64,000 nucleotides of DNA from Candidatus Peregrinibacteria bacterium GW2011_GWF2_38_29 (GTDB lineage Bacteria > Patescibacteriota > Gracilibacteria > UBA1369 > UBA12463): positions 1 through 64,000 of the forward strand of contig LBUS01000003.1 in NCBI GenBank assembly GCA_000992695.1, given 5' to 3'. The notes below the pieces were generated by a model. It searched no databases. It was not told where the DNA came from and saw only the letters and a program-made list of their open reading frames with translations. Shown here in pieces: positions 8,244-11,838 of the stretch (the stretch's first letter is position 1; every line of letters begins with the position of its first letter). The position numbers and the translations under genes are program-made.

Positions 8244-9101
8244 ATGGATACATACACTCCCGAACAAGTTTTAGCTTTGTCTGATGAAGAAATTATTCGC
8301 GACATTGAACGAAATGATGATTTTGCCGCGTATTTACGAGAATTGCAGTTGGAAATTTATGGAGATGATACGCTCGGTGAAGTAAAAACCGCTTTGACGG
8401 GAGAAGCGATAAATCGTGCAAGCGTTGATTGCAACTGGAGAAAAGAATGGACAGAAGATGATCGCAAACAACATAGAGAAGAGCTTTATCCGTTGGCATT
8501 CAAAGGAGATGAAGCTATTGATATCAGAGTTAGAACTCTTGCTCGTGTTAGATGTGCTATAAAAAGAATAGCTGATAGCGTATCTGATTTAGCACATAGA
8601 TCAGACGAAAGAACAAAATTACAAAATCTGCTTAAAAGAACAAAAGACGGAGATTTGACTGTTAGATATGCTGATTCCGACAGAGATGGTGGACTTCATT
8701 TGGCGGGAGAAGATTCTCGAGAAGTCATGTTTGGATGGGGTCTCAATTTTAGCCCTGATTTACAACTTAAGCTAGCTAGTGATTATGAAATAATGCCTTA
8801 CGATCCCATTATGCCTGATAAGGGCGCTGAAATAATCGGTATTTTGGCACAAGAATGTCAACTTTCTCCTGTTGCATGGAAAGTCTTACTTGATAGAGAT
8901 AATGATTCAACTTATAGAGCTATTTGGAATACAAAAGATACTCGACTTGAAGTTATGGATATAATTATGAGATCTGATAAATTCGCCTTACTCTATCGAG
9001 CAAGAACTGAAAAAAGTGCAAGAGCCGATTTATTAAAACGAGCTTCGGAATTTCATGATGCAAATTTTAAAACATGGTTCAGACATAGACCAATCCGATA
9101 A
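8244..9101 (+). CDS. Uncharacterised acidic protein, 285 residues
   Basis: I do not recognise this protein. It is soluble in appearance, with no signal peptide or membrane segment, rich in Asp, Glu and Arg, and probably mostly helical. The N-terminus has an LSDEEIIRDIERNDDF-type acidic helix. A central stretch contains DSDRDGGLHLAGEDSREVMF, and the C-terminus is basic (WFRHRPIR). It has its own TG-extended promoter, and a strong terminator lies about 150 nt downstream at 9252, so it is probably monocistronic. The tRNA-like element on the opposite strand lies in its 3' region. Confidence 0.7.
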   Translation: MDTYTPEQVLALSDEEIIRDIERNDDFAAYLRELQLEIYGDDTLGEVKTALTGEAINRASVDCNWRKEWTEDDRKQHREELYPLAFKGDEAIDIRVRTLARVRCAIKRIADSVSDLAHRSDERTKLQNLLKRTKDGDLTVRYADSDRDGGLHLAGEDSREVMFGWGLNFSPDLQLKLASDYEIMPYDPIMPDKGAEIIGILAQECQLSPVAWKVLLDRDNDSTYRAIWNTKDTRLEVMDIIMRSDKFALLYRARTEKSARADLLKRASEFHDANFKTWFRHRPIR

Positions 9102-9137
9102 TTTTTTTGTTTTCTTAAATTCAAAAACCGGCAGGAG

Positions 9138-9251
9138 TGGTGGAACCTACGGGAATCGAACCCGCCTAATTTTATGGTAAAATAAGCTTGTTCTCTGTTC
9201 ATTTAACAGAGTGGTGGAGGTTCTTAGCCTTATGGTTAAGGATCAGGTCCC
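9138..9251 (-). ncRNA. Atypical 114-nt tRNA-like RNA with alanine-type acceptor
   Basis: Read on the minus strand, the 5' end GGGACCT (9251-9245) pairs with AGGTTCC (9148-9142), giving a 7-bp acceptor with a G3-U70 wobble, the alanine identity element. Discriminator A and CCA (9141-9138) follow. The T arm is canonical: GCGGG-TTCGATT-CCCGT. In between there is no normal D arm or anticodon arm. Instead there are hairpins CCTT-AACCAT-AAGG, CTCTGTT-AAATG-AACAGAG and a 9-bp A/T-rich stem closed by CCA. A G3-U70 acceptor plus T arm is typical of tRNA-Ala and tmRNA, but tmRNAs are about 350 nt and this one lacks their conserved 5' GGNTTCGACG segment. It could be a reduced tmRNA-like RNA, a specialised tRNA-like RNA or a decayed gene. 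No convincing minus-strand promoter was found. Confidence 0.5.
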
Positions 9252-9280
9252 ATCCCCGGTAGATTTATCGGGGATTTTTT
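9252..9280 (+). terminator. Rho-independent terminator
   Basis: ATCCCCG (9252-9258) pairs with CGGGGAT (9269-9275) over a 10-nt loop and runs into T(6). It is oriented for plus-strand transcripts from the 285-residue gene. Confidence 0.85.
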
Positions 9281-9281
9281 G

Positions 9282-9294
9282 TGCCTCCGTCCCC
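9282..9294 (+). repeat. 13-bp dispersed repeat, copy 2
   Basis: TGCCTCCGTCCCC, directly after the terminator and before the promoter of the TraG-like gene. Confidence 0.7.
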
Positions 9295-9363: not shown

Positions 9364-11838
9364 ATGGTTCAATTCCTACAAATTTTTGGGATAGTCCTGG
9401 CCGTTATTGCCGTACTTTGGTTCATTCTTTGGCGCATGCGTAAGCGTTATGATATGAAACGCATGATGAATCTTGTTTTTTTGCGCGTAAAAGTACCAAG
9501 AAAGGAATCTAAAGAAGATAATGAACGTGAACGTGAAGCCTTTTCTTCTCAAAAGAACTTTAAGGAAATTGCCGGCTTGATGACTCACTTTTTTGAGTCC
9601 TTACACGGCATGTATCAGCATGAATTTAAGTATTTTTTCAAGGGACAAGATTTTCTTTCTCTTGAGCTTGTGGCATTTGAAAAACAAATACATTTTTATT
9701 TTGTTATGCCGCGAAATTTATTCAGCTTTTTTGAAAAACAGATTACAAGTTTTTATAATGATGCTGTTATTGAAAAAATGCCGGATTATAACTTATTTAA
9801 GCCAAACTCTCATGTTGTAGGTTGTTATATTCGTGAAAAAATCAGCTGGATGTTTCCAATAAAAACTTATCAGAGGATGAATTCCGATCCGCTTAATAAT
9901 CTTATAAATGCTCTTTCCAAACTTGAAGATAATGAAGGCGCCGCAATTCAAGTTATGATTCGACCCGTTGAAGATGGATGGCAAAAACGTGGACGCAAAT
10001 TTGCAGAAAAAGTGTTTGGAAAAAAGACCAGCGACGTTGAATGGTGGAATCCTCTCACTTGGATTTCCGCTATATTTGAAGCGCTTATTACGAGTGACAA
10101 AAAACCTCAAATGGGTGAACAGCAAGGCAGAACAACACCTATGACAGATGAGGAAACAAAGGCTCTTGAAGAAAAGAATTCAAAGCCGGGCTATAACACT
10201 GTGATTAGAGTTGTTTCCAGCTCACCAAGCAAAAGAGAAGCCGATGTGAATCTTCATAATATCAAGAATGCATTTGGCCAATATGACGCGCCAAATCAAA
10301 ATGAATTCTTATATACAAGATGGCATAACGACAGGCTCCTTATCTCGAATTTCATCTTCAGAAGGCCTGTTCGAAACTGGTTGCAATGGTTTAAAAGTAA
10401 GAAAATGATTTTGTGTTCGGAAGAAATTGCGAGCTTATTTCATCTTCCAAATATCCGTTATAATCAAAATCCTTCTATTGCATGGCAGAACTATAAGATT
10501 GCTCCTCCGCCTCCAAATTTGCCTGCTGAAGGGCTTTTGTTGGGCTATAACACTTATCGTGGTGTTACAAAAGAAGTTAAGCTTAAGCGTGAAGATAGAT
10601 TTAGACATTTTTATCTTGTCGGACAAACCGGTACGGGTAAATCTTCCCTTCTTCAAGTTATGATTCGCCAAGATTTAAAAAATGGTGATGGACTTGCTAT
10701 TATTGATCCTCATGGAAGTCTTGTTGAAGACATTTTGCCATTTATCCCTCGTGAACGCGCGGATGATGTCATTTACTTTAATCCCGGTGACATGGATCGC
10801 CCGATGGGTATGAATTTGCTTGAAGGCGACACATGGGAAGAAAAGGAATTCGTTTCTCAGGAAGCCATGAACATCATGGTTAAGTTGTTTGGTGAAGAAA
10901 TCTTTGGGCCAAGAATCCAGGACTATTTTAGAAATGGTTGTTTGACGCTTATGTCTGATCCGGATGGTGGCGCCATCACAGATATCGTTCGCTTGTTTAC
11001 AGATGATGATTATCAAAGATATAAGGTTGAGAAAGTCACAAATCCAATCGTTAAATCCTTCTGGCAGCATCAGATGGCCAAAACCGGACAAAGAGAAAAA
11101 CAGGAAATGATCCCGTATTTGGCTGCTAAGTTTGGTCAGTTTGTCACGAATACAATGATGCGTAACATTATTGGTCAGGCAAAATCCTCTTTTGATTTCT
11201 TTGAAGCAATGCAGAATAACAAAATTATTCTTATCAATCTTTCAAAGGGTGAAACCGGTGAAACAAACTCAAAATTGCTTGGTATGGTGATTGTCGCGAA
11301 AATCCAAATGGCGGCTATGCGCAGACAAAAAATTGCAAAGGAAGCCAGAAAAGACTTCTTCCTATACATCGATGAATTTCAAAACTATGTTACGGATTCC
11401 ATTGAAAGCATCCTTTCAGAAGCTAGAAAATATCGCCTTGGACTTATTATTGCTCACCAATATTTGGCTCAGCTTGAAGATAAAGGTGGCGAACTTTCCA
11501 AGAAACGTGCGACTGTTAAAGAAGCCGTGTTTGGTAACGTTGGAAGTATGATGGCTTATAAAATCGGTGCGCAAGACGCAGAATACCTTATGAAGGAATT
11601 TGCGCCTGTATTTAGCGATCAGGACTTGATTAATATGGATAAATTTAAGGGTGTTATAAAACTTTCCATTGATATGCAACCTTGCCGCCCATTTAGCCTT
11701 ACTCCTACGAATCCTTACCTTGAAAAAGGTGATTTTGAAGCCGCAGAAGCTTATAAACAACTTTCGAGATTGAAATACGGCCGCGATAAGGAATTTGTGG
11801 ATAGAGAGATTATCAGGAGAATTGGGGGGAATATGTGA
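9364..11838 (+). CDS. Membrane-anchored TraG/TraD/VirB4-like ATPase
   Basis: An 824-residue protein with one N-terminal membrane segment (about residues 5-25: FLQIFGIVLAVIAVLWFIL) and a cytoplasmic AAA+/HerA-type ATPase. Walker A is GQTGTGKSS (about 420-428), followed by IIDPHG. The Walker B-like LYIDEFQNY (about 667-675) precedes SEARKYRLGLIIAHQYLAQL, the pattern of type IV secretion coupling proteins. Related ATPases without other conjugation genes are common in CPR genomes, where they may energise DNA uptake or pili; no mating-pair genes are visible here. It ends at TGA and is followed by a G-poor spacer. Fold assignment is strong; the transported substrate is unknown. Confidence 0.85.
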   Translation: MVQFLQIFGIVLAVIAVLWFILWRMRKRYDMKRMMNLVFLRVKVPRKESKEDNEREREAFSSQKNFKEIAGLMTHFFESLHGMYQHEFKYFFKGQDFLSLELVAFEKQIHFYFVMPRNLFSFFEKQITSFYNDAVIEKMPDYNLFKPNSHVVGCYIREKISWMFPIKTYQRMNSDPLNNLINALSKLEDNEGAAIQVMIRPVEDGWQKRGRKFAEKVFGKKTSDVEWWNPLTWISAIFEALITSDKKPQMGEQQGRTTPMTDEETKALEEKNSKPGYNTVIRVVSSSPSKREADVNLHNIKNAFGQYDAPNQNEFLYTRWHNDRLLISNFIFRRPVRNWLQWFKSKKMILCSEEIASLFHLPNIRYNQNPSIAWQNYKIAPPPPNLPAEGLLLGYNTYRGVTKEVKLKREDRFRHFYLVGQTGTGKSSLLQVMIRQDLKNGDGLAIIDPHGSLVEDILPFIPRERADDVIYFNPGDMDRPMGMNLLEGDTWEEKEFVSQEAMNIMVKLFGEEIFGPRIQDYFRNGCLTLMSDPDGGAITDIVRLFTDDDYQRYKVEKVTNPIVKSFWQHQMAKTGQREKQEMIPYLAAKFGQFVTNTMMRNIIGQAKSSFDFFEAMQNNKIILINLSKGETGETNSKLLGMVIVAKIQMAAMRRQKIAKEARKDFFLYIDEFQNYVTDSIESILSEARKYRLGLIIAHQYLAQLEDKGGELSKKRATVKEAVFGNVGSMMAYKIGAQDAEYLMKEFAPVFSDQDLINMDKFKGVIKLSIDMQPCRPFSLTPTNPYLEKGDFEAAEAYKQLSRLKYGRDKEFVDREIIRRIGGNM

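Follow-up and report, generated by a model that had tools for sequence, protein, structure and literature searches.

The window, that is, the whole stretch of 64,000 nucleotides that was analysed, belongs to a genome of 1.23 Mb in 23 contigs and contains, between two genes of the plus strand, a tRNA-like element that reads on the minus strand. One of the two genes is an ORF at 8244–9101 (285 aa) with no Pfam match, and the other, at 9364–11838, encodes a protein of 824 aa that carries coupling-protein domains of the TrwB/TraG type. The element is real: in the window sequence, positions 9251 to 9138 of the minus strand (114 nt) read GGGACCT...AGGTTCC-A-CCA, and the 7-bp acceptor stem with its G3-U70 pair, A73, the encoded CCA and the T arm all agree with a preliminary description of this DNA. 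The complete copy can be written as GGGACCT-GATCCTTAACCATAAGGCTAAGAACCTC-[CACCACTCTGTTAAATGAACAGAGAACAAGCTTATTTTACCATAAAA]-TTAG-GCGGGTTCGATTCCCGT-AGGTTCC-ACCA. Its predicted folding energy is -31.6 kcal/mol, compared with -20.9 +/- 3.4 kcal/mol in shuffled sequences (z = -3.1). The perfect hairpin directly upstream of the unit (Table 1) is followed on the plus strand by TTTTTT; it belongs to the leader of the tRNA-like RNA on the minus strand and is also a likely terminator of the plus-strand gene 8244–9101.

Table 1. Coordinates of the tRNA-like unit in the window, of its parts and of the related copies in the same genome (C, contig).
Feature	Position	Strand	Basis
Whole tRNA-like unit, 114 nt	9138..9251	-	R1 match, 40.7 bits
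Acceptor stem, 5' strand GGGACCT (G3 of G3-U70 at 9249)	9245..9251	-	Sequence and family count
Acceptor stem, 3' strand AGGTTCC (U70)	9142..9148	-	Sequence and family count
Discriminator A73 and CCA	9138..9141	-	Family: A73 in 88/88, ACCA in 68/88 copies
T arm GCGGG-TTCGATT-CCCGT	9149..9165	-	tmRNA-model match and family comparison
Hairpin CCTTA-ACCA-TAAGG at the place of the D arm	9228..9241	-	Constrained fold without the insertion
Anticodon-like arm, 5' part CTAAGAACCTC (orthologue GGGCTTGAGAACCTC)	9217..9227	-	Alignment with L166
47-nt insertion with TCTGTT/AACAGA and TTTTA/TAAAA hairpins	9170..9216	-	Absent in orthologue G001:C13 (L166); fold
Anticodon-like arm, 3' remnant TTAGG, running into the T stem	9165..9169	-	Orthologue alignment
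Perfect hairpin ATCCCCGGTAGATTTATCGGGGAT, directly upstream of the unit	9252..9275	.	Kept in the orthologue
Possible outer stem, 5' half GGGGACGGAG, weak in this copy	9285..9294	-	Sequence, orthologue, family trend
Possible outer stem, 3' half CTCCTGCCGG	9128..9137	-	Sequence, orthologue
Family copies in the same genome	C15:38226, C7:27837, C1:84452, C1:15692, C14:20758, C12:13230, C3:9138 (the window copy)		R1

The window copy receives no call from ARAGORN and no match in Rfam 15 at the gathering score. The tmRNA model (RF00023) matches it at 18.7 bits (E = 1.5e-5 for 601 bases), well under the gathering score of 47. That match covers the acceptor and the T arm only, and it is what favours the idea, raised in the same description, of a drastically reduced tmRNA with a short resume-like frame. 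The genome, however, carries a full-length ssrA (G000:C6:35380-35787, 408 nt, 150 bits), whose tag, AENANEMAFVRAARAFAPALALA, ends in ALALA, as well as smpB (E = 2e-48). The letters of the GCT AAG...TGA frame are present, but they lie mostly within an extra 47 nt that are placed after GAACCTC when the window copy is compared with its syntenic orthologue in a genome of the same genus (G001:C13, L166). The orthologue is 70 nt long and shares with the window copy the leader hairpin and the trailer. Since the insertion is absent from it, the frame is not a conserved feature, and the relatives have neither a resume frame nor pseudoknots. The reduced tmRNA is thus rejected, its probability being next to nothing.

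The element belongs to a family of tRNA-like RNAs, spotted through tmRNA-model matches at short genome sites that the tRNA model missed, with a typical member of about 70 nt. A covariance model built from 12 copies (R1) finds seven copies in this genome, and copies in all eight genomes of its taxonomic family. In the order, 44 of 89 genomes are positive with the same model at E<=1e-9; with a second, more sensitive model built from 87 copies (R2), the count is 28 among 40 well-completed genomes of the order, or 25 once matches as long as canonical tRNAs (75 nt or more) are disregarded. At least 22 of 380 genomes in a sample of the phylum pass a strict screen, 13 of them outside the order; this is a lower bound, since only 13 candidates were scored per genome. 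Additionally, when named genomes were scanned with a pattern and the hits scored with R2, matches above 48 bits fell in Candidatus Peregrinibacteria, Peribacteria, other Patescibacteria and one Phycisphaerae MAG, and those of the lower-scoring matches that were checked turned out to be mostly tmRNAs and tRNA-Ala, which their U70 would lead one to expect.

The Phycisphaerae member (L238:4535-4683, JAJDDU010000439.1; 62 bits, G3-U70) is followed, after a gap of 4 nt, by a tRNA-like gene which ARAGORN classes as tRNA-Stop (anticodon UUA) and which might suppress UAA; the contig could be mis-binned. A Thiobacillus MAG, also outside Patescibacteria, has a 71-nt alanine-type (G3-U70) tRNA-like sequence (L215:3348-3418, 44.9 bits), which is devoid of a normal D or anticodon arm and may be a separate kind.

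Copies adjoin genes that, judging by their sequences, we take to be purH (downstream, in four genomes) and recJ (in three). Because these places are shared despite strong divergence of the RNA sequences, the copies have been kept in place by descent. An all-against-all comparison of the flanking ORFs gave no common partner gene; apart from housekeeping genes here and there, it found only a Cys-rich family, at 11 loci. The Cys-rich proteins (L140, L096, L148, L152, L154 and others) are ~320-550 aa long with zinc-ribbon-like repeats, and their genes lie mostly 75-150 bp from the RNA loci, on the opposite strand. Several copies (L073, L103, L140, L158, L207, L327) are found from a few hundred bases to ~1 kb from contig ends, as if near assembly-breaking repeats.

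Existing tools largely pass these RNAs over. Rfam 15 at the gathering score gave, for 14 loci, a single match, to tRNA (29.6 against a cut-off of 29), missing the other 13, and ARAGORN took three of the 19 members examined for tRNA-Ser(UGA), calling neither the other members nor any of the 13 loci outside the order. No prior description of such a family was found in the open-licence PMC literature on tRNA-like RNAs, pseudo-tRNAs and tRNAs of Peregrinibacteria or CPR, and this family of short tRNA-like RNAs of Patescibacteria is apparently undescribed so far.

The copies read with their flanks share one design, with an acceptor GGG...(T)CC-A-CCN carrying G3-U70. The D arm has 3–4 bp and a loop of 3–5 nt containing GG, and is followed, almost without linkers, by an anticodon-like stem of ~8 bp and by the T arm. 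The absence of an anticodon arm, noted in the preliminary description, is therefore not a property of the family, whose typical members have a long arm of this kind; in the window copy it is broken by the insertion. Three members (L174, L341, L346) form a full canonical cloverleaf with G3-U70 and a long anticodon loop such as ACTTGACAC, suggesting a tRNA as the origin of the family, with the cloverleaf members as its possible ancestral form.

The compensatory changes that had been proposed as a check in relatives are abundant. In an alignment of 12 copies, arranged by hand according to structure with N padding, 95.0% of the cells are paired, compared with 67.4% in shuffles, and there are 78 double changes versus 24.5; in an alignment of 87 copies, fitted to the model, 96.3% are paired, compared with 63% in shuffles and at most 59% in slid controls, with 682 double changes versus 202; the way in which both alignments were made leans towards the structure. 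The stronger evidence of covariation is provided by the slid controls and by the wealth of pair types. As judged from these comparisons of sequence, the shared fold is under compensatory selection. A chance structure is rejected by the orthologue together with the covariation in the 87 relatives. Thus, of the two findings that the preliminary description had named as jointly pointing to a decayed or chance structure, a full-length ssrA elsewhere is indeed present, but the element is conserved in relatives. An origin as the duplicate of a tRNA end at an integration site is not supported either, because all four arms of the fold are complete in the copies, which in the order often come with promoters, terminators and conserved synteny.

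In this lineage the units are surrounded by an outer inverted repeat. A contiguous outer stem of at least 7 bp flanks 72% of the units in the order, compared with 32% when partners are swapped; for the tRNAs of this genome, the corresponding values are 28% and 17%. Outside the order, the outer stem was not detected. Promoter-like motifs are found upstream of 28% of the units in the order (5% in shuffles) and terminator-like sequences downstream of 34% (7% in shuffles).

The outer stem invites the alternative that the RNA is never charged and acts as a regulator or decoy, a tRNA mimic that would bind AlaRS, RNase P, a modifying enzyme or a tRNA-cutting toxin while the stem closes its CCA end. 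In most copies of the order this stem encloses the unit; it can pair the CCA itself, the last base of the CCA is not fixed (20 of 88 tails are not ACCA), and both the loop and the copy number vary fast. However, a sound acceptor end with its A73 and CC would be superfluous in a decoy, and outside the order the stem is not detected while G3-U70 and A73 stay. We regard such a function as possible but improbable. A tRNA-like module combined with a stem of paired ends is, in turn, the layout of the bacterial Y RNA YrlA, in which the tRNA-like end and the terminal stem would be bound by a Ro60/TROVE protein. The general resemblance is countered by the lack of any TROVE protein in the 89 genomes of the order, with a control match found in Deinobacterium, and by the alanine identity and CCA of the family, which to our knowledge are not features of Y RNAs. 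This explanation is disfavoured, and we consider it highly improbable.

Within the fold, the alanine identity elements are invariant or nearly so. AlaRS is not known to read the anticodon. All 87 aligned copies have G-U at pair 3-70, a count to be read with the fact that R1 was built from copies with G-U alone at this position, which biases its retrieval somewhat to G-U, although most matches score tens of bits higher than the floor; each of the acceptor pairs 4-7, in contrast, takes up to five pair types. G-C is found at pair 2-71 in 85 of 87 copies and at pair 1-72 in 82 of 87, and G3-U70 is also present in each of the 13 copies examined outside the order. A73, G2-C71 and G3-U70 belong to the alanine identity elements of bacteria (PMC9976931). 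The anticodon-like loop is by comparison free. Its commonest bases are C32, U33 and A38, U33 not being constant, position 37 is mostly C or A, and the triplet is not fixed, with UGA commonest (22 of 100, the phasing being ambiguous in some copies), followed by many others. The family thus has no fixed alanine anticodon in a 7-nt loop, and the genome has its own tRNA-Ala (G000:C4:124832). Since G3-U70 and A73 are invariant while the anticodon is free, a use of alanine outside decoding is the simplest reading, and the suggestion of an Ala-accepting RNA for another use, already made in the preliminary description, finds support, within the reach of sequence evidence, in the invariance of these elements across a multi-copy structured family.

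An alanine-charged RNA might still act on the ribosome, as an odd elongator or as a frameshifting or codon-independent tRNA, if its arms fold into an L that is accepted by EF-Tu and alanine is added at special sites or at stalled ribosomes. The GG of the D loop and the T loop are kept as invariant columns, the T stem is strong, with G-C at 51-63, the commonest loop bases are C32, U33 and A38, the alanine identity is ssrA-like, and the few cloverleaf members (L174, L341, L346) keep a full tRNA shape. However, the triplets, taken as anticodons, would lead to alanine at codons for Ser, Thr, Leu, Pro, Arg and Ile, most copies have a pyrimidine at position 37, U33 is not constant, and an anticodon-like stem of 8 bp without a linker would put the loop too far out. 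The known Ala-tailing pathway is disfavoured as well, since RqcH (NFACT_N) exceeds the curated cut-off in none of 40 genomes. A function on the ribosome is thus possible but improbable.

Relative to this family background, the window copy has two faces. Its anticodon-like arm is split by the 47-nt insertion, for which no convincing source was found among the loci of its own genome that were compared, and both this arm and the D arm are disturbed in a constrained fold. In turn, the only change in the acceptor with respect to the orthologue is G4 to A, which turns pair 4-69 from G-U to A-U, so the acceptor has stayed sound. The copy could therefore be a decaying pseudogene of the family, an explanation compatible with the one that we favour for the family as a whole. 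The split arm and the remodelled D arm point in this direction, as does an R1 score (40.7 bits) that is the lowest among the seven copies of the genome, and a copy elsewhere with an insertion of ~26 nt in the T loop (L339, G003:C40:2851-2948) suggests that copies do decay. The perfect acceptor, the conservation of the T arm, CCA, leader hairpin and trailer, and the folding of the insertion itself into hairpins speak against decay, and the chance that the copy is a pseudogene falls just short of even. Insertion-bearing copies thus recur, L339 being found besides the window copy.

For the family we favour, tentatively and with somewhat less confidence than an even chance would imply, an alanine-accepting, non-decoding RNA that would serve as a dedicated alanine donor, with FemAB as its likeliest recipient and the window copy as an insertion-bearing member. 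The RNA would be transcribed from its own promoter and then trimmed; such processing must be assumed because most copies in the order have their CCA end enclosed in a longer stretch of pairing. The ordinary alanyl-tRNA synthetase would charge it with alanine, and the charged RNA would donate the alanine outside codon-directed translation, most probably to a FemAB-type peptidoglycan aminoacyl transferase, which would spare cell-wall synthesis from competing with translation for Ala-tRNA. The window copy retains the acceptor/T-arm minihelix, which would in principle be enough for alanylation, although it may be a decaying copy.

FemAB-type enzymes use aminoacyl-tRNA for cell-wall bridges. One is encoded in this genome (G000:C1:78339-79403), and they occur in 78 of 89 genomes of the order and in 330 of 380 of the phylum sample (3 of 14 control genomes), including all 22 RNA-positive genomes of the latter. 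In the order, FemAB is found in 40 of 44 RNA-positive and 38 of 45 RNA-negative genomes; it is so widespread that its co-occurrence with the RNA says little. The two are adjacent at one of 101 loci, which is not significant; at that locus (G004), femAB is followed 108 bp downstream by the RNA. In Weissella, Ala-tRNA(Ala) is a substrate of FemX (PMC10552525). In Staphylococcus aureus, escape from EF-Tu is achieved by changed 49-65 and 51-63 pairs (PMC9976931); such pairs were not seen in the family, where the T-stem column for 51-63 is G-C in 85 of 87 copies. Since FemAB is also present in RNA-negative genomes, is adjacent at a single locus, and the EF-Tu-escape changes are absent, the recipient is the weakest link of the proposal.

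More generally, and with similar reserve, we can speculate that Patescibacteria may run a second, parallel alanyl-RNA pool, made of multi-copy minimal tRNA-like RNAs that the ordinary AlaRS would charge through the G3-U70 code alone and that, freed from decoding, would feed a non-ribosomal process, be it cell-wall bridging or another transfer of alanine. If this is true, RNAs scattered over the phylum with only the operational (acceptor) code for alanine and no anticodon code would offer a natural test of the 'second genetic code', ultra-small bacteria would devote scarce genome space to several non-decoding alanine adaptors, and a new or poorly studied alanine-transfer step would be expected in the envelope or translation of Patescibacteria.

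The family can be compared with several known RNAs. The tRNA-like domain of tmRNA (RF00023) has the same 7-bp acceptor with G3-U70, a T arm and no decoding anticodon, whereas the family, at 70 nt, lacks the mRNA part and the pseudoknots and coexists with full ssrA and smpB. With tRNA-Ala it shares G3-U70, A73, G1-C72, G2-C71, the T arm, the GG of the D loop and the encoded CCA; it differs in having no fixed alanine anticodon, an anticodon-like stem of 8 bp, a D arm of 3–4 bp with a 3–5-nt loop, no U8/A9, 26 or variable-loop linkers and, in the order, an outer stem. YrlA and other bacterial Y RNAs likewise have a tRNA-like module and a stem that brings the two ends together, the family being distinguished by its alanine identity and CCA and by the absence of a TROVE partner in the genomes searched. 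The tRNA-Other of Bacillus cereus, a pseudo-tRNA, also resembles a tRNA, has its place outside translation and forms part of a longer transcript; it is only poorly aminoacylated in vitro, has a Trp anticodon and occurs in some Bacilli (PMC3399842), and it does not form a G3-U70 family. S. aureus has dedicated non-proteinogenic tRNAs for cell-wall synthesis (PMC9976931), and its tRNA-Gly for peptidoglycan resembles the family in being tRNA-shaped, present in several copies and believed to serve a non-ribosomal transferase. In contrast to it, the family has alanine instead of glycine, a far more reduced fold, no EF-Tu-escape pairs, a role that we infer here, and members in many families of the phylum.
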